64,000 nt of DNA from Azovibrio restrictus (GTDB lineage: Bacteria; Bacteroidota; Bacteroidia; Chitinophagales; Chitinophagaceae). A program made the position numbers and the translations under genes. The stretch spans positions 39,834-103,833 of the forward strand of contig JANLJF010000016.1 of assembly GCA_029255605.1 (NCBI GenBank), read 5' to 3'. The notes beneath the pieces were generated by a model. It was not told the origin of the DNA. It saw only the letters and a list, made by a program, of their open reading frames with translations, and ran no database searches. Positions 1,868 to 10,714 of this stretch are shown here, piece after piece (within the stretch, counting starts at the first letter, position 1; every line of letters starts with the position of its first letter).

Positions 1868-2164
1868 TTAGGGTACTACTACTTTCTGAGTCACGCTCCA
1901 TGCTTGCGGCTTATCCGCAAACAGAGCTTTTGTTCTGGCCCAGGTATCTTTAAACAGTTCTGAAAACCGGTAATGGTCTAAATGCTGCTCGCTTTGCCAA
2001 TGGCTGTAAGTAAGAAATACATTGGCATCGTGTGCATCCTGCCACAGCTCTAAATGCGTGCAGCCTTCAAAATGGCGTATCAGGTGCTTACGCTCCTCAA
2101 ACAATGCCTGGAAAGCCTCTACATGCTGTGGCTCAAATGTCATCCTTACAATACGTACAATCAT
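1868..2164 (-). CDS. Antibiotic biosynthesis monooxygenase (ABM) domain protein
   Basis: MIVRIVRMTFEPQHVEAFQALFEERKHLIRHFEGCTHLELWQDAHDANVFLTYSHWQSEQHLDHYR: ABM-fold pattern. ATGA overlap with the upstream gene. Confidence 0.8.
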   Translation of the reverse strand: MIVRIVRMTFEPQHVEAFQALFEERKHLIRHFEGCTHLELWQDAHDANVFLTYSHWQSEQHLDHYRFSELFKDTWARTKALFADKPQAWSVTQKVVVP

Positions 2165-2955
2165 TCAAAGATTATTTTAATGGCATTATACATCAGGTGC
2201 TGCTCTTTACTGAGCCTCAGCCCTAGCAGGCTGGCTGCCTTGCCCTGGTTGATGGCTATTTCAAGATAACCTGTGCTATTGAAACGGCACAGCATTTCAT
2301 CGCGCGGTACATCGCTGTAATGGTTACTTATTTTGCTAATAGATTCCCGCAGGAACAGCATACGGAATGGCCTGCCGTGGCTATAAGCTTCAAACTGCTC
2401 GTGCGTAATGTTGATGACCACATTCTCATACCTGTCTATATGTATCACATGGCATTCTACGGTGTTGCCTGTAAGGCGCGGCTGCCAGTGCACCAGTGCA
2501 TTGCTCATATCACAAGGCACCAGCTCCATATCTTTAGCATTGTGGCCATTCCCCAGTTTGTTTATCATATCTGCCGCTGCTTTCATCCAGTCTTTCATGG
2601 TATAATTGGCAGGCAATGCGGGGCATAGCCATGTGGAGTAGTAGGCACCGCTGAAAGCCAGCGAAAGCACACCATTATCGGGCGCCAGGAAATAGTGCCC
2701 GTCTTTCTGGCAAAGCAATAGCTTAGGTGCTGCATCATAAAATACATTGCACAGTACTACGTGAAAGCTGCCTGCAGGAAAATTTCTGTATGCTGAATTG
2801 AGTAGATAGGCCGCCTGTTGCAAATGATATGGCTCTACCTGGTGCGAAACATCGACAATAGGCAACCGGCTTGCATGCTGCATCAGGATGCCCTTTGCAG
2901 CTGCCACAGAGGCATCCTGCAAACCGAAATCTGACAGCAGAGTGATACAAGCCAT
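2161..2955 (-). CDS. S-adenosyl-L-methionine hydroxide adenosyltransferase family protein (DUF62)
   Basis: Starts MACITLLSDFGLQDASVAAAKGILMQ…IVDVSHQVEPYHLQQAAYLL and contains LAPDNGVLSL. The internal ATG at 2955 is favoured over the 3168 ORF start. Confidence 0.88.
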   Translation of the reverse strand: MACITLLSDFGLQDASVAAAKGILMQHASRLPIVDVSHQVEPYHLQQAAYLLNSAYRNFPAGSFHVVLCNVFYDAAPKLLLCQKDGHYFLAPDNGVLSLAFSGAYYSTWLCPALPANYTMKDWMKAAADMINKLGNGHNAKDMELVPCDMSNALVHWQPRLTGNTVECHVIHIDRYENVVINITHEQFEAYSHGRPFRMLFLRESISKISNHYSDVPRDEMLCRFNSTGYLEIAINQGKAASLLGLRLSKEQHLMYNAIKIIFE

Positions 2956-3097
2956 AAAAGTAGATAGCAAAAGTAAACCGCTAAAACGGCAATGCAAAGC
3001 CGGATTGCCATTATAGGTGCATAATAGAAAATATTTAGTCCATATTTGCGTTATTAATTCTACTACTAACTTTACTGAGAAGTATATAAACTGCCCG

Positions 3098-4525
3098 ATG
3101 CGTAATAAAGGTTTTATAGTTGCCACCCTGTTTGTGATGCTGATAGCTGTACTGGGTACAGGCTGCAAGAAGGAAAAACTGCTGACAGCTGGTGGCCAGC
3201 TGCGTTACTCTACCGATACCCTTACTTTCGATACCGTGTTTACAGCACAAGGGAGTTTCACTACACAGGTAAAACTGTATAATCCCCAAAATCAGAAAGT
3301 AAATATCAGCACCATCAGGTTGGAGCAGGGTAATCAATCACAGTTTCATCTAAACGTAAATGGCATTAGTGGCAATAATGTTACAAACATAGAGCTGGCG
3401 GCTAATGATAGCATGTACATTTTTGCTACTGTAAATGTAGACCCTACTAATATAAACACGCCTTTTGTAGTAGAAGATAAAGTAATAGCTACCATGAACG
3501 GTAAGGATTATGAGCTACCATTGCTGGCATACGGGCAGAATGCTTATTATTTAATAGACAGCCTGATAGAAACATCGCAAACCTGGCTTACAGATAAGCC
3601 TTATGTTATTATACACAGCGCACAGGTAAAGGAGAATACTACACTGACGATACCGGCAGGTTGCCGCATCTACATGCATGCCGATTCGCGCCTGTATGTA
3701 GATGGTACATTGATAGTGAATGGTACAAAAAAAGATAGTGTAATATTTCAAGGCGACAGGCTGGACAGGAAATATTTCGGCAATGAAGGTTACCCCGGTG
3801 AGTGGGGTGGTCTGTACTTCTCGCCCAAAAGCCGTAAAAGTGTTCTGAACTACGCGATATTAAGGAACTGCGGCAGCACTACCGGCCTGGGGCTTGCCGC
3901 CGCCATCTGGGCTACGCCCGATAGTGTGAATGATAATGATTTTCAATTGCGCATGTATAGCACCATCATTGAAAACTCGATAGGCTATGGTATAGTAGGC
4001 TTTGGTAGTACCATATACGGGCAGAATTGCCTGATACATAATTGCGGTGCACAGGGGTTGGCTACTTTTGAAGGTGGACAATATTATTTCGATAATTGTA
4101 ATTTTGTTACATACGGTAATAAGAAATTGAGCCATATAGATAACCCGACCGTAGCGCTTATCAACTACAGGGATATTGATGATTATAACTATGTAGCGGG
4201 GCCGTTAGATGCACAACTCCGCAACTGCGTTATCTGGGGTTCTCTGGAAAATGAATGCTTTATCAATAAAAAAGGGAATAGCACAGTAGATGTGAAGCTG
4301 ATAAACTGTGCTATCAAGAGTAAAGAAGCGATACCATCTTACGTTACCAATACCAACAGCATCATCAATACAGATCCATCCTTCAAAGATGCAAATGGTG
4401 GGGATTTCAAATTGAATGAAAACTCCCCCCTAAGAGATAAAGGTATAAACATCAGCGGACTGGATAGGGACCTGGACGACAAGCCGCGTACCGGTGTGCC
4501 GGATATTGGCTGTTATGAATATTAA
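3098..4525 (+). CDS. Lipoprotein with right-handed beta-helix/choice-of-anchor-like repeats
   Basis: Lipobox-like VLGTGCKKEK; repeated 'LINCAIKS'/'LRNCVIWG' coils; C-terminal DLDDKPRTGVPDIGCYEY. ATG at 3098 precedes the signal peptide. Confidence 0.75.
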   Translation: MRNKGFIVATLFVMLIAVLGTGCKKEKLLTAGGQLRYSTDTLTFDTVFTAQGSFTTQVKLYNPQNQKVNISTIRLEQGNQSQFHLNVNGISGNNVTNIELAANDSMYIFATVNVDPTNINTPFVVEDKVIATMNGKDYELPLLAYGQNAYYLIDSLIETSQTWLTDKPYVIIHSAQVKENTTLTIPAGCRIYMHADSRLYVDGTLIVNGTKKDSVIFQGDRLDRKYFGNEGYPGEWGGLYFSPKSRKSVLNYAILRNCGSTTGLGLAAAIWATPDSVNDNDFQLRMYSTIIENSIGYGIVGFGSTIYGQNCLIHNCGAQGLATFEGGQYYFDNCNFVTYGNKKLSHIDNPTVALINYRDIDDYNYVAGPLDAQLRNCVIWGSLENECFINKKGNSTVDVKLINCAIKSKEAIPSYVTNTNSIINTDPSFKDANGGDFKLNENSPLRDKGINISGLDRDLDDKPRTGVPDIGCYEY

Positions 4526-4562: not shown

Positions 4563-5099
4563 TCAGGCAGCATGGTGTTGTTGCACGTACTCCATAAAGC
4601 GCGGCATAGCCAGGTGGAACCAAGGCGTGAAGTCTTCCGGCTTTTCGTGCATCCAACGCTGTAAATCAGCAGCTGCTATAAACTTGTAGTCGTTCGCTTC
4701 TTCGGCATTCGGTTTCACATCACCATCGTAAGTGCCAAAGTATATATGGTCGTACTCGTTCTCTATCAGTTCATTGTTCACATCCGCTTTATAGCGTAGG
4801 GTGAAGATAGGCTCCAGGTCACAGTCAAATCCCATTTCTTCCTGCAGGCGTCTGTGTGCTGCATGCAGCGTGCTTTCGCGTGGTGCCGGGTGAGAGCAGC
4901 AGGTATTGCTCCACAAACCACCTGAATGGTATTTGCTGTAAGCCCGTTGTTGCAGTAGTATCTCGTTATTGCTGTTCAATATAAATACAGACAATGCACG
5001 GTGCAATGCACCTGCGCGGTGTGCCTGCAGTTTCTCCATTGTGCCCAGCCACTCATCCTGTTCATTCACCAGTATCACGTGGTTTTCTTTCGCCGCCAT
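4563..5099 (-). CDS. idi: Isopentenyl-diphosphate delta-isomerase, type I (Nudix)
   Basis: WSNTCCSHP…RRLQEEMGFDC and ENEYDHIYFG motifs. Confidence 0.95.
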   Translation of the reverse strand: MAAKENHVILVNEQDEWLGTMEKLQAHRAGALHRALSVFILNSNNEILLQQRAYSKYHSGGLWSNTCCSHPAPRESTLHAAHRRLQEEMGFDCDLEPIFTLRYKADVNNELIENEYDHIYFGTYDGDVKPNAEEANDYKFIAAADLQRWMHEKPEDFTPWFHLAMPRFMEYVQQHHAA

Positions 5100-5109
5100 A
5101 GGTGCAAAG

Positions 5110-5949
5110 TTATAGAAGGTTCAGCCTGTTATTGACACCTGCCGTAAATACGATGAACATTTTTTCATAATCGGGTACACGCACACGCTGTTCCAGCACC
5201 GATTGCGGTTGCATACGTTGTATTTTCCTGAACAATGCATAATAATACCGGTATGCGGTATAAACTCCCAAACGTGCTTTCCATGGCAGCTTACGTATCC
5301 CTGTGAGTGCGGCTTTAAAATCGGCTTCAATATCGTGTTCTATCTTCTTCTTGCTCTGTATGTCAAAGCGGTAAAAATCCAGCTCCGGAAAATAAGTACG
5401 GTTCAGGTTGTTGTAGTCCGACTGTATATCCCGTAGGAAATTTATCTTTTGAAAGGCTGCGCCTAGTTTCCGTGCGCCTTGTTGCAATTCATCATACTTC
5501 TTCATGTCCCCTTCGCAGAAAACACAGAGGCACATCAGCCCCACCACTTCTGCCGAACCATATACATATTCATCCAGCTCATGCACCGTGTTATAGTCCG
5601 TTTTGTGCAGGTCCAGCTTCATGCTGTGCAGGAAGGCGGTGATGAGTTCATAAGGTATGTTATATGTATGCACCACATGCTGAAAGCTATGCAGCACCGG
5701 GTTCAGGCTGATGCCACGCGATACCGCCAGCCAGGTATCACGTTCAAATTCATCCAGCAGTGTTGCCTTATCGTGCTCGTGAAAGGTATCTACTATTTCA
5801 TCTGCCAGCCTTACAAAGCCATAGATGTCATGTATCGGGCCTCGCAGGTCTTTATGCAACAGCTTAATGGCACTTGAAAAAGACGTGCTGTATTGCTGCG
5901 TTATTATCTTGCTGCAGGCATGGCTCACACTATGAAAAATGGACATCAT
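5110..5949 (-). CDS. crtB: Phytoene/squalene synthase family protein
   Basis: YGFVRLADEIVDTFHEHDK (DxxxD-type), YVYGSAEVVGLMCL, LGAAFQKINFLRDIQSDYNNLNRTYFP. Confidence 0.93.
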   Translation of the reverse strand: MMSIFHSVSHACSKIITQQYSTSFSSAIKLLHKDLRGPIHDIYGFVRLADEIVDTFHEHDKATLLDEFERDTWLAVSRGISLNPVLHSFQHVVHTYNIPYELITAFLHSMKLDLHKTDYNTVHELDEYVYGSAEVVGLMCLCVFCEGDMKKYDELQQGARKLGAAFQKINFLRDIQSDYNNLNRTYFPELDFYRFDIQSKKKIEHDIEADFKAALTGIRKLPWKARLGVYTAYRYYYALFRKIQRMQPQSVLEQRVRVPDYEKMFIVFTAGVNNRLNLL

Positions 5950-5953
5950 AAGC

Positions 5954-7432
5954 TCAGGCAGTTTTGAGTGTTTTCTTTTTAAGAATCTGTTTGGCTACTA
6001 TCTCTCCCGATATCAGTGCGGGCGGCACACCCGGTCCCGGTACAGTCAGTTGCCCGGTATAATACAGGTTGTGCAGTTTTTTATTGCGTATGGATGGTTT
6101 GAGCAATGCAGTTTGCCGCAGTGTATTGGCCAGGCCATAGGCATTACCCTTAAAGGCATTATAATCGGTTACAAAATCGTTGTGTGCATAGCTGCGTATG
6201 TAGGTAATATGCGGCTTTATATCAATGCCTGTACGCTGCGCTATACGTCGTATGGCTGTTTCAAAATACTGATTGCGTATGGCTTCAGTATCTTCCATGC
6301 CCGGCGCTATGGGTATTAGTATAAAGAGGTTTTCACATCCTTCGGGCGCTACGCTAACATCTGTTTTTGATGGGCAGCATACATACATCAGTGGCTCATC
6401 GGGCCATTGAGGCTTTGTGTACAGCGCTGCAGCGTGCGCATCGAAGGGCGCATCAAAAAACAGGTTGTGGTGTTGCAGGTTTTCTATTTTTCTATCGATA
6501 CCTACATAATACAGCAGGCACGATGGGGCCATCTCGCGTTTGTCCCAATAGCCATCGCTGTAGTTCCTGTATGCATCCGGCAATAGTTCTGCTTCTGCAT
6601 GGTGATAATCGCAGGCAAGGATGATGTTATCTGCATTCAGGTCTTGCCTGTCGGTAGATACAATGCCCGCTTCATGGCCCCATGCTTTAATGCCGGTGAC
6701 AGTTTCATTAAATTGAAACTGTACACCTAGTTCTGTTGCCAACTGATGCATGGCATTGGCTACCTGCACCATGCCACCCATAGGGTACCAAGTGCCCAGC
6801 TTCATGTCGGCATAGTTCATCATGCTGTATAATGCCGGTGTATTGCGTGGCAATGCACCGAGGAATAATATCGGGAACTCTACCAGTTGCTGCAGCTTGG
6901 GGTGCTTGAAATACCGGCGCACATGCTTGTGCATCGATGTCAGCATATCTATGCGCAACAGTGAGCGCATTACATCTGTACGCATAAACTCAGTAACGGA
7001 TAACCCCGGCTGGTATATAAAATGATTGAAGGCTGCGTCGTATTTATACGCTGCTTCATTCAGAAAGGCATCCAGCTTTTCAGCCGCGCCTGTTTCGTGT
7101 TGTTCAAACAGGTTACGCAGTTCCCGGTAGTCGCTGGGAATATCTGTCATACCATCTTCCCAGAATACGCGGTATGATGGTGATAGTCTTTCCAACTGAT
7201 AGTAGTCGGCAGGTGTTTTGCCAAACTGTGCAAAGAACCGTTCAAATACATCGGGCATCCAGTACCAGCTAGGACCCATATCGAAGGTGAAGCCATTTGC
7301 CGAAAATGCTCTTGCCCTGCCACCAGCTGTGCTGTGTTTTTCAACCACCGTCACTTGTACACCTTCTTTTGCAAGAAAGCATGCAGCCGACATGCCCGCA
7401 AACCCACTTCCTATGACGATAGCTTTTTTCAA
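5954..7432 (-). CDS. crtI: Phytoene desaturase (CrtI family)
   Basis: N-terminal GSGFAGMSAACFLAKEGVQVTVVEKHSTAGGRARAF FAD motif; C-terminal GLANTLRQTALLKPSIRNKKLHNLYYTGQLTVPGPGVPPALISGEIVA. Confidence 0.95.
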   Translation of the reverse strand: MKKAIVIGSGFAGMSAACFLAKEGVQVTVVEKHSTAGGRARAFSANGFTFDMGPSWYWMPDVFERFFAQFGKTPADYYQLERLSPSYRVFWEDGMTDIPSDYRELRNLFEQHETGAAEKLDAFLNEAAYKYDAAFNHFIYQPGLSVTEFMRTDVMRSLLRIDMLTSMHKHVRRYFKHPKLQQLVEFPILFLGALPRNTPALYSMMNYADMKLGTWYPMGGMVQVANAMHQLATELGVQFQFNETVTGIKAWGHEAGIVSTDRQDLNADNIILACDYHHAEAELLPDAYRNYSDGYWDKREMAPSCLLYYVGIDRKIENLQHHNLFFDAPFDAHAAALYTKPQWPDEPLMYVCCPSKTDVSVAPEGCENLFILIPIAPGMEDTEAIRNQYFETAIRRIAQRTGIDIKPHITYIRSYAHNDFVTDYNAFKGNAYGLANTLRQTALLKPSIRNKKLHNLYYTGQLTVPGPGVPPALISGEIVAKQILKKKTLKTA

Positions 7433-7450
7433 CGTGCGTGAAGTTATTGT

Positions 7451-7948
7451 TTATCGGTCCAGTTGAGACATTAATGTTTTCCGTGCAAAGTGTATCCGGC
7501 TCTTCACAGTACCAAGTGGCTCTTGCAGCAGGTCGGCTATCTCCTGGTATTTATAGCCTGTGTAGTGCAACTCAAAGCACAGGCGGAATATCTGCGGTAA
7601 CCCATCTATCGCTTTTTTCACCTCCCCAAGCCGCATATTATTCCAGCCTTCATTATATACTGCTTTTTGGGTGCTGTACATCAGGGCATCGGCAGGTACA
7701 TCGCCTGACACCTTGAAGAACTTTTTACTGCGCCGGTAGTTATTGATGAAAATATTGCGCATTATAGTGTAGAGCCATGCCTTCAAGTTGGTGCCAAACT
7801 GGTATTTCTCTTTGTTCATCAGGGCGCGCATCATGGTTTCCTGGAAGAGGTCCTGCGCATCTTCATGATCGCGTGTAAGCGTTATGGCATAAGGCTTCAG
7901 AAAGTCGCCGTGGCGCACTACCATGTTATTAAAGTCAGCAGCAGTCAT
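7451..7948 (-). CDS. ECF-type RNA polymerase sigma factor
   Basis: HEDAQDLFQETMMRAL (region 2), YKYQEIADLLQEPLGTVKSRIHFARKTL (region 4). Start taken at the ATG 7948. Confidence 0.92.
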   Translation of the reverse strand: MTAADFNNMVVRHGDFLKPYAITLTRDHEDAQDLFQETMMRALMNKEKYQFGTNLKAWLYTIMRNIFINNYRRSKKFFKVSGDVPADALMYSTQKAVYNEGWNNMRLGEVKKAIDGLPQIFRLCFELHYTGYKYQEIADLLQEPLGTVKSRIHFARKTLMSQLDR

Positions 7949-7956
7949 ACATTTTT

Positions 7957-7987
7957 TGTTTAACTGTTTATGGTGTAAAGTTAAACA
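7957..7987. promoter_or_regulatory. Candidate operator: perfect inverted repeat TGTTTAACT-N13-AGTTAAACA
   Basis: Arms 7957-7965 and 7979-7987 read directly; located 8-39 bp upstream of the sigma factor ATG. Confidence 0.55.
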
Positions 7988-8108
7988 CTCATACCATCTG
8001 CCAAAATAGTTTTTGTTTATAGTTACTGTGGTCTTTATTAAACAAGACGTGCGGGCATATGGTTTCTCAACCAGAATGGCCATTAGCGTATATATCAATA
8101 AGAAAGGA

Positions 8109-9008
8109 TTAACTAAGGCTCAGGATATAATTCTTAACCTGCTGCAAGGAATAAAAAGGTACTATGCGCGGGTGGCTCTGCAGCTTGGTATGCTTCAGCA
8201 TACTGCCCGATACGAGGATGGTAATACCGGGTAATGTTTCGGTCAGTTTCTTCAGATACTTATTGCTGTCAAATTCGGAAGCCACAGATGTAAGGTGGAT
8301 AAAAGCATAGTCCGGCTTTTTCATTTCTGCGGTCAGTTGCACATCTTTTACCGGCGAATTAGGGCCGAGATAGATGGGTTTCTTTCCATGCTTCAGCAAA
8401 AGATAGTGCACATACATCAGGCCTATGTCGTGTATCTCTCCTTCGGGCAGGAATAATAGTACAGACGGGCCGGCATCCGGATTTTTGGGTAGTTGTTCTA
8501 TAGCAAGGGCCAGTTTGCGATACACGATATTACTCATAATATGCTCCTGCGCCGGAAATATGCGGTCGGTCATCCACATGATCCCCACCTTTTCCAGGAA
8601 GGAAAACAGCAAGCGTTCCACAGCCATTTCTATACCGTTCTTTTTAATGTAGGCGGTTATCAGCGCTTCAAAGAGGTCGGTATCCAGGGTCAGCATCGTT
8701 TCCAGCATCTTGTTTACCTGTGCCTGCAGCTGGAATTCCTGGTCATTTATTTTATTGATTACATTATTGATCTCCTCCTCGCTCATTTCCTGTATGCGCG
8801 ATATCTTATAACCGTAATCATTAAGGAGGGCTATGCGCAGCGCATATTTCAGGTCGGTAGCATCATAATACCGGATATTGGTTGGGGTACGCTTAGGCTG
8901 CAATATGCCATAGCGTTGCTCCCATATGCGTATGGTATGTGCTTTGATGCCTGTCAGGTTTTCTATATCCCTGATGCTGAAACGGTTCATATCTGCTGTA
9001 ATACCCAC
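8109..9008 (-). CDS. MerR-family regulator with C-terminal cobalamin-binding domain (CarH/LitR-like)
   Basis: N-terminal RFSIRDIENLTGIKAHTIRIWEQRYGILQPKRT HTH; W-x9-EH (WMTDRIFPAQEH) and E/DxHxxG (EIHDIG) B12-binding motifs. Confidence 0.92.
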   Translation of the reverse strand: MGITADMNRFSIRDIENLTGIKAHTIRIWEQRYGILQPKRTPTNIRYYDATDLKYALRIALLNDYGYKISRIQEMSEEEINNVINKINDQEFQLQAQVNKMLETMLTLDTDLFEALITAYIKKNGIEMAVERLLFSFLEKVGIMWMTDRIFPAQEHIMSNIVYRKLALAIEQLPKNPDAGPSVLLFLPEGEIHDIGLMYVHYLLLKHGKKPIYLGPNSPVKDVQLTAEMKKPDYAFIHLTSVASEFDSNKYLKKLTETLPGITILVSGSMLKHTKLQSHPRIVPFYSLQQVKNYILSLS

Positions 9009-9026
9009 GGTAGTAGCATTTCAAGG

Positions 9027-9518
9027 TTAAACATTCAATGAAACTGAATTGTTTGGCACCTTACTGAAAAGCGATTCGATCTGCCGGTACCGGTAGTCAA
9101 ATATACCTTCTAATTGGCGTTTCAGGAAAAGGCGGTGCGCCAGGTCGCCAATAAAATACAATGGCAGGCGATAATGCACCAGGTCGGTCATCCACACGCC
9201 TTCCGCCGTTGCTTCAAAATAGTGCTGGTGATGCCACAGGCTGTAAGGCCCTATGCGTTGCTCATCCACAAATCTCTTATGGTGTTCTACATGGGTTATT
9301 TCTGTCATCCAGTACAATGGAATACCTAATATGGGCGATACCTTGTAGGTGATGATTTGCCCGGCATAGATGCCATGTTTTGAAGACCCGGATGTGATGC
9401 GGAAGTTCATATAAGACGGCGTAATGGCAGCCAGGTTATCGGGGCTGGAAAAGAAAGCCCACAATTCTTCCATACTGCTATGTATCAGTTGCTTTCGCTC
9501 TATTTTATATACGGCCAT
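9027..9518 (-). CDS. SRPBCC (START/polyketide-cyclase-like) family protein
   Basis: HSSMEELWAFFSSPDNLAAITPSYMNFRI…LVHYRLPLYFIGDLAHRLFLKRQLEGIFDYR. Confidence 0.85.
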   Translation of the reverse strand: MAVYKIERKQLIHSSMEELWAFFSSPDNLAAITPSYMNFRITSGSSKHGIYAGQIITYKVSPILGIPLYWMTEITHVEHHKRFVDEQRIGPYSLWHHQHYFEATAEGVWMTDLVHYRLPLYFIGDLAHRLFLKRQLEGIFDYRYRQIESLFSKVPNNSVSLNV

Positions 9519-9619
9519 GATAATGAAACAATTAAAGCACCATAATGTTTAATGCTACCATAGAGATATACAATAAGCATCGTGCCTGCAAAACAACGTA
9601 ACTTCGGTAAGAGGTTTTT

Positions 9620-10714
9620 ATGAAAGGGATATTATTTACGAAATTTGAGGAAGGGGATAAGCGTACACCATTTCAGAAGTTGCTGGATATTTTTATGGAG
9701 TTGCTGCAATATACCAACGGCGACCCTTCCGAAGCACTGGACTGGTTGACGCAACTGGATGCGCAGTACCATCTTACAGGTGATGATTACGGCATAGGCG
9801 ATTTTATAGAAGACCTGAAACAAAATGGTTACCTGAAAGAAACAGAAGAAACAGGTGCCTACAAGATAACTGCCAAGTCGGAACAAAGCATCCGCAAGCG
9901 CTCGCTCGATGAGATATTTGGCAAGCTGAAGAAAACCAAACAGGGCAACCACCATACTTTTAAAAGCGGGCAGGGCGATGAACTGAACCCCGAAACCCGC
10001 CCCTATGAATTTGGCGATGCGCTGGAAGCTATAGACTATACCGGCAGCCTCAAGAATTCATTTGTAAACCACGGCATAGATGGCTTCACAATGAAGCAGG
10101 ATGACCTTGAAATTCATGAGATGGATTTCAAGACACAAACCTCTACCGTGCTGATGATAGATATCTCTCACTCCATGATATTGTACGGCGAAGACCGTAT
10201 CACCCCTGCCAAGCGGGTGGCTATGGCATTGAGCGAGCTGATAACCACACGCTATCCTAAAGACACGCTGGATATTGTAGTATTTGGCAATGATGCCTGG
10301 CAGATAGAAATGAAAGACCTGCCTTACCTGCAGGTAGGGCCTTATCATACCAATACGGTAGCGGGACTGGAACTGGCAATGGATATACTACGCCGCCGCA
10401 AAAACCCCAATAAGCAGGTGTTTATGATAACGGATGGCAAGCCTACCTGCCTGAAAGTGGGCAACAAATATTACAAGAACAGCTTTGGTATAGATAGTAA
10501 GATACTGAACCGCACGCTGAACCTGGCGGGGCAAATGCGCAGGCTCAAGATACCTGTCATCACCTTTATGATAGCCAACGACCCTTACCTGCAATCGTTC
10601 GTACGCAACTTTACAGAGGTAAATAATGGCAAGGCGTTCTATTCCTCGCTCGATGGTTTGGGCCAGTTTATATTTGAAGATTACGAGCGCAATAAGCGCA
10701 AGCGCGTCAGGTAG
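9620..10714 (+). CDS. von Willebrand factor A (VWA) domain protein
   Basis: MIDAS DISHS (DxSxS) in TVLMIDISHSMILYGEDRITPAKRVAMAL and FMITDGKPT. Confidence 0.85.
   Translation: MKGILFTKFEEGDKRTPFQKLLDIFMELLQYTNGDPSEALDWLTQLDAQYHLTGDDYGIGDFIEDLKQNGYLKETEETGAYKITAKSEQSIRKRSLDEIFGKLKKTKQGNHHTFKSGQGDELNPETRPYEFGDALEAIDYTGSLKNSFVNHGIDGFTMKQDDLEIHEMDFKTQTSTVLMIDISHSMILYGEDRITPAKRVAMALSELITTRYPKDTLDIVVFGNDAWQIEMKDLPYLQVGPYHTNTVAGLELAMDILRRRKNPNKQVFMITDGKPTCLKVGNKYYKNSFGIDSKILNRTLNLAGQMRRLKIPVITFMIANDPYLQSFVRNFTEVNNGKAFYSSLDGLGQFIFEDYERNKRKRVR

Follow-up and report, generated by a model that had tools for sequence, protein, structure and literature searches.

A candidate B12-dependent light switch with a predicted sigma-factor feedback loop in a carotenoid gene island of Chitinophagaceae

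Results

A predicted photoreceptor-sigma factor circuit

By analyzing a 64,000-nucleotide stretch of contig JANLJF010000016.1 (hereafter, the window) alongside related genomes, we identified a six-gene island whose organization points to a light-responsive B12-dependent repressor of an ECF sigma factor and carotenoid genes, with a feedback loop running through the sigma factor; taken as a whole, we consider this explanation probable. In the dark, a CarH-like protein carrying adenosylcobalamin (AdoCbl) would occupy two operator-like repeats, O1 and O2, and block the housekeeping promoter of sigma-crtI-crtB-idi. In light, photolysis of the Co-C bond would free the repressor, and a single promoter would serve the sigma factor and carotenoid genes alike. 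The sigma factor would then read leaderless AAAC-N16-TGTTW promoters in front of a photolyase gene and the SRPBCC-carH unit and, in relatives, may also transcribe ispH and crtZ. The photoreceptor, consumed by light, would in this way be resupplied by the sigma factor that it silences, which would be useful because AdoCbl photolysis in CarH is irreversible (PMC8156234).

The island comprises two predicted transcription units

The island consists of the following genes, which a first-pass annotation of the sequence had already placed in these six minus-strand positions and families, an assignment borne out by open reading frame checks, Pfam and NCBIfam searches, and structure matches:

9027..9518, minus strand: SRPBCC (START/Bet v 1-like) protein, 163 aa, heading the SRPBCC-carH unit
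8109..8990, minus strand: CarH/LitR-like regulator with MerR and cobalamin-binding domains, 293 aa (Pfam, match to CarH_Tt, motifs)
7451..7948, minus strand: ECF sigma factor, 165 aa (Sigma70_r2 and Sigma70_r4_2)
5954..7432, minus strand: crtI-type phytoene desaturase (NCBIfam NF058655, 740 bits, cut-off 640)
5110..5949, minus strand: crtB-type phytoene synthase (PF00494, SQS_PSY, 169.6 bits)
4563..5099, minus strand: idi, type-1 isopentenyl diphosphate isomerase (TIGR02150 and NF002995, both above cut-off)

The regulator scored 51 bits for MerR_1 and 30 bits for B12-binding_2, with a weak B12-binding domain (23.6 bits, under the cut-off of 32.1), and its best match among solved structures was Thermus CarH (E 4e-24). 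Its reading frame is also open from a GTG at 9008 (8109-9008), with homologues favouring the ATG at 8990. The SRPBCC protein had no Pfam match of its own; close orthologues pass PF03364, and an alignment-based structure model (pTM 0.73) matched START/Bet v 1-like folds. This model was used in place of a single-sequence one, which we discarded (pLDDT 41).

Homology places the start of the sigma gene at ATG 7948, versus the mechanically called TTG 8098, and thereby leaves a 160-bp regulatory gap between the regulator gene and the sigma gene. Downstream of sigma, the genes are separated by 18, 4 and 10 bp (sigma-crtI, crtI-crtB and crtB-idi, respectively), in agreement with the gaps of about 4-18 bp reported earlier. 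Judging from its layout, the island is two transcription units rather than one, SRPBCC-carH-like and ECF sigma-crtI-crtB-idi, split by the 160-bp gap and its repeats. The order regulator, sigma, crtI, crtB recurs in most of about 140 loci across Chitinophagales and Cytophagales, far beyond chance. As also previously noted, no anti-sigma gene adjoins sigma in the window, and none was found in the conserved gene order of relatives.

Several features of the surroundings were also recorded. A VWA-domain protein gene (9620-10714), divergent from the SRPBCC gene, is kept beside it in congeners and has a possible -7 box of its own (TAACTTC) inside the intergenic region that the two genes have in common. 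The region 1868-3168 carries two genes co-directional with the island, one SAM hydroxide adenosyltransferase-like and the other for an ABM monooxygenase, which overlap by 4 bp. In one relative (genome G134, L017:638-1411), a PF18916 lycopene cyclase gene takes the place of the SRPBCC gene immediately 5' of the carH-like gene.

Operator-like repeats cover a predicted housekeeping promoter

The 160-bp gap holds two operator-like repeats, 57 bp apart, and a predicted promoter:

8014..8044, no strand assigned: operator-like repeat O1, TGTTTA-N19-TAAACA, 31 bp, an inverted repeat within the 160-bp gap
7957..7987, no strand assigned: operator-like repeat O2, TGTTTA-N19-TAAACA, 31 bp, overlapping the -7 box
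7976..8006, minus strand: predicted Bacteroidota housekeeping promoter, with TTTTG (8002-8006), an 18-bp spacer and TAACTTTA (7976-7983)

O2 covers TAACTTTA, which lies near the Bacteroidota -7 consensus TAnnTTTG (PMC9723704). Across the 3.27-Mb genome (99% complete), the exact repeat pattern occurs at O1 and O2 only, and within the window none was found before the SRPBCC gene. A scan with the sigma-70 consensus returned fewer matches than shuffled sequence and was set aside as uninformative for this phylum.

Chitinophagales and Cytophagales yielded 117 gaps between carH-like and sigma genes, of which 106 were non-redundant. The exact repeat (spacer 17-20) precedes sigma in 99 of these 106 gaps, a repeat with at most one mismatch in 105/106, and two repeats are present in 79; in 92/105 relatives, the -7 box sits at a fixed place within the repeat. 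Before control genes, the exact repeat was found in 12/1871 cases, of which 11 were carH-like genes themselves. These relatives are non-independent samples, and Fisher values computed on such counts ignore kinship and are a guide only. None of eight sigma orthologues from genomes without a carH-like gene was preceded by the repeat. Where the carH-like gene lies elsewhere in the genome, the repeat still precedes sigma-crtI-crtB (genomes G063, G003, G236, G011, G047 and G136); in a further set of genera it is exact in Runella, Raineya and Lunatibacter, carries one mismatch in Arundinibacter, and is degenerate in Spirosoma. The repeat thus tracks the presence of the regulator, behaving as an operator should. 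Its half-site TTAAACA includes the TnnACA of the CarH site consensus, an 11-bp nAnnTnnACAn that occurs as direct repeats (PMC8156234), with the halves inverted here rather than tandem and set apart by a spacer of 18-19 bp. Collectively, these patterns suggest that the regulator would bind O1 and O2, and that direct repression of sigma and the crt genes by the photoreceptor is most likely, with no sigma-to-crt step needed.

A predicted ECF-type promoter precedes photolyase and the SRPBCC-carH unit

We also searched for a motif common to photolyase genes, learning it from these genes only (23 relatives carrying the module, with the matrix built on 17 photolyase genes). The resulting motif, (A/C)AACN(T/A)T-N12-(T/C)TGTT(A/T), lies mostly 7-9 bp 5' of the ATG and scored 334, compared with 211-232 for shuffled sequence. 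In the window it corresponds to:

9526..9550, minus strand: AAACATT-N12-TTGTTT, a predicted ECF-type promoter in leaderless geometry, 7 bp 5' of the SRPBCC ATG

This candidate promoter shares its element and spacing with the photolyase promoter of its own genome. A strict pattern matched 19 times in that genome versus 13 in the control, a count in itself barely above control; the matches 7-8 bp before a start codon are two, those of photolyase and SRPBCC-carH, and these alone stand out. In a congener (G171), the ECF-type pattern gave 39 matches versus 30 in the control, which we put down mostly to chance, photolyase excepted.

Among relatives, the photolyase matrix (at least 11 bits) found its element before 59/141 carH-like genes, 5/19 SRPBCC genes and 19/1617 unnamed genes, and before 0/126 sigma, 0/104 crtB, 0/87 idi and 1/152 crtI genes. 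A looser ECF-type pattern at fixed distance from the ATG was present before 62/123 carH-like genes lacking an SRPBCC gene in front and 0/18 of those following one, a comparison that is partly circular because the pattern was picked after viewing carH-like upstream regions, as the photolyase-only matrix was not. The first-pass annotation had supposed that sigma transcribes the crt genes; the looser pattern precedes 0/126 sigma, 0/152 crtI, 0/87 idi and 1/104 crtB genes, which speaks against that supposition. Its other carriers in relatives, named from sequence, are ispH (four genes), crtZ and a photolyase-related gene.

Across genomes, the ECF-type promoter precedes photolyase in 18 of 23 with both a carH-like gene and sigma, in none of five with sigma only, and in none of six with neither. 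It thus follows the carH-like gene and not sigma alone, and the island's sigma factor is a candidate reader of it. The most economical interpretation is that the ECF sigma factor does read it, and would thus probably drive photolyase together with the unit of its own repressor.

The putative sensor retains a light signature without His132

The first-pass annotation had proposed a B12-type light-sensing repressor, and the residues of the window protein support this reading. It contains the adenosyl-contacting motif Wx9EH (WMTDRIFPAQEH), and the W, E and H, together with ExH and GxxW, are invariant in 61/61 relatives. The light-response signature GxxW/EH/GxxH/GxxxP (PMC11796333) is complete here as GIMW, EH, GEIH and GPNSP. 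The classic motif D/ExHx2G/P-x41-SxT/V-x22-27-GG is found in altered form: ExHx2G is present, SG replaces GG, and HxT stands in place of SxT/V in the window protein and in about 120/141 relatives. The substitution of His for Ser in HxT may mean that the cobalamin tail is bound differently. Against the NCBIfam CarH equivalog, the window protein scored 101.5 bits (cut-off 400); with this cut-off and two features of the CarH description lacking, we rejected the equivalog label. The genome encodes MetH and an IcmF-type mutase, the latter an AdoCbl user, so AdoCbl is probably available to the cell.

The position of CarH His132 is Met in the window protein, and His occurs there in 2/61 and 0/79 relatives (2 of 140). 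In many CarH and class I LitR proteins, although not all, this His after the Trp is the upper ligand of the bis-His light state. TtCarH H132A was largely tetrameric in light according to one study, versus an earlier report of disassembly (PMC10442372). CtMerR (WP_157850694) is likewise a MerR-type AdoCbl photoreceptor without His132; with Arg at this position it retains AdoCbl binding, a response to green light and monomerisation (PMC11796333). It differs from the proteins studied here, which have Met, Leu, Val or Gln. By analogy, release from DNA in light is possible without His132, and the regulator would both bind AdoCbl and respond to light.

Carotenoid supply, product and crtB-less relatives

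The expectation that GGPP would be supplied from elsewhere held up, in that a genome search found two PF00348 polyprenyl synthase genes on other contigs (C144 and C126), either of which, by family, can provide it. The earlier annotation had left the end product as either dependent on a cyclase encoded elsewhere or acyclic. A search for the PF05834 lycopene cyclase family yielded none in this genome or in three congeners, and an acyclic carotenoid is the likely product so far as the PF05834 search reaches. NF058655, the family passed by CrtI, is named bifunctional phytoene desaturase/3,4-desaturase.

Five near-complete relatives (92-100%) possess the carH-like gene, sigma and the operator-like repeat with no crtB anywhere (loci L041, L042, L043, L044 and L056 of genomes G281, G200, G070, G288 and G287). 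Retention of the carH-like gene and sigma in these genomes implies that sigma has another job.

Discussion

Alternative explanations

In the linear cascade of photoreceptor to sigma to crt that the first-pass annotation envisaged, light would free the sigma gene only, and sigma would transcribe crt from a promoter of its own. The Streptomyces LitR-LitS-crtE pathway operates in this way (PMC12705666), and three relatives (G191, G030 and G237) have crtI-crtB elsewhere without a convincing operator-like repeat ahead of them. We nevertheless consider this arrangement improbable for the island: crtI begins only 18 bp past sigma, placing crt behind sigma in one predicted unit with one housekeeping-type promoter and two operator-like repeats, and ECF-type promoters before crtI, crtB and idi do not exceed chance. 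Moreover, in genome G293 crtI-crtB follows immediately on a second carH-like paralogue (L236:4739-7837), with exact repeats and without an intervening sigma gene. Equally little credence can be given to a repressor that answers B12 status, or redox or oxidative stress, instead of sensing light in the cell. The missing His132 and altered B12 motif could be read this way, as could the ability of Myxococcus CarA to act without B12 (PMC8156234); against it, Wx9EH, which is lost in the B12-independent CarA (PMC9304148), is invariant here, CtMerR still binds AdoCbl and responds to green light with Arg in place of His132 (PMC11796333), and the second promoter element was found on photolyase genes.

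A third alternative concerns the feedback step only and would leave the operator part of direct repression standing: AAAC-N16-TGTTW might be read by a different sigma factor or bound by the CarH-like protein acting as an activator. Its AAAC and GTTT halves form an imperfect inverted repeat, and photolyase is not preceded by it in the five genomes that have sigma and lack a carH-like gene. This reading appears unlikely, if with appreciable weight, given that the fixed 7-8 bp to the ATG fits a promoter starting at the A of the ATG, that no operator-like repeat lies in front of photolyase, and that ispH, crtZ and a photolyase-related gene are among the element's carriers. The AAAC and N16 also resemble ECF -35 elements and their spacing. 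For the feedback step we therefore retain the island's own sigma factor as the candidate reader.

Comparison with known systems

The predicted circuit recalls CarH of Thermus thermophilus and of Bacillus megaterium (class I LitR), with which it has in common a MerR domain plus cobalamin domains, Wx9EH and ExH and, as predicted, an operator over a housekeeping promoter and a carotenoid target (PMC8156234, PMC9304148). It differs from both in that its two repeats are inverted, where CarH has tandem 11-bp direct repeats; no His follows the Trp; the B12 motif has HxT and SG; and the target operon opens with an ECF sigma gene. LitR-LitS of Streptomyces coelicolor places a B12 light regulator over an ECF sigma gene adjoining carotenoid genes, as is predicted here; however, LitR is reported to switch on litS in light, with crtE transcribed by LitS (PMC12705666), whereas here crt lies on the predicted sigma transcript, and the ECF-type promoter is on photolyase and the photoreceptor's own unit. 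In Myxococcus xanthus, too, light-induced carotenoid synthesis involves both an ECF sigma factor and a CarH-type repressor (the CarQ/CarR/CarS-CarA and CarH system; PMC8156234, PMC9304148), but there CarQ is held by the anti-sigma factor CarR and answers singlet oxygen, and the island has no anti-sigma gene or CarS.

Implications

Light-induced pigmentation has been reported in Bacteroidota, Chryseobacterium lacus being one case (PMC7064467), with no regulator known, and in the open-access literature, to which our search was confined, we found no prior description of a B12 light switch or CarH in Bacteroidetes. As a tentative generalization, quite possible although not one we would yet favour, the module may represent a phylum-wide light switch of Bacteroidota, in which a consumable, non-bis-His B12 photoreceptor acts through inverted-repeat operators and a sigma factor makes leaderless messages for its own sensor and photolyase, as part of a general light-protection regulon that is crt-less in some species. 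For many cultured species, base-level predictions follow from the operator, promoter and feedback loop, and the consistent absence of His132 makes these regulators a natural set of proteins for DNA release without bis-His ligation. Species that have the switch and lack phytoene synthase would show that its control extends beyond pigments.
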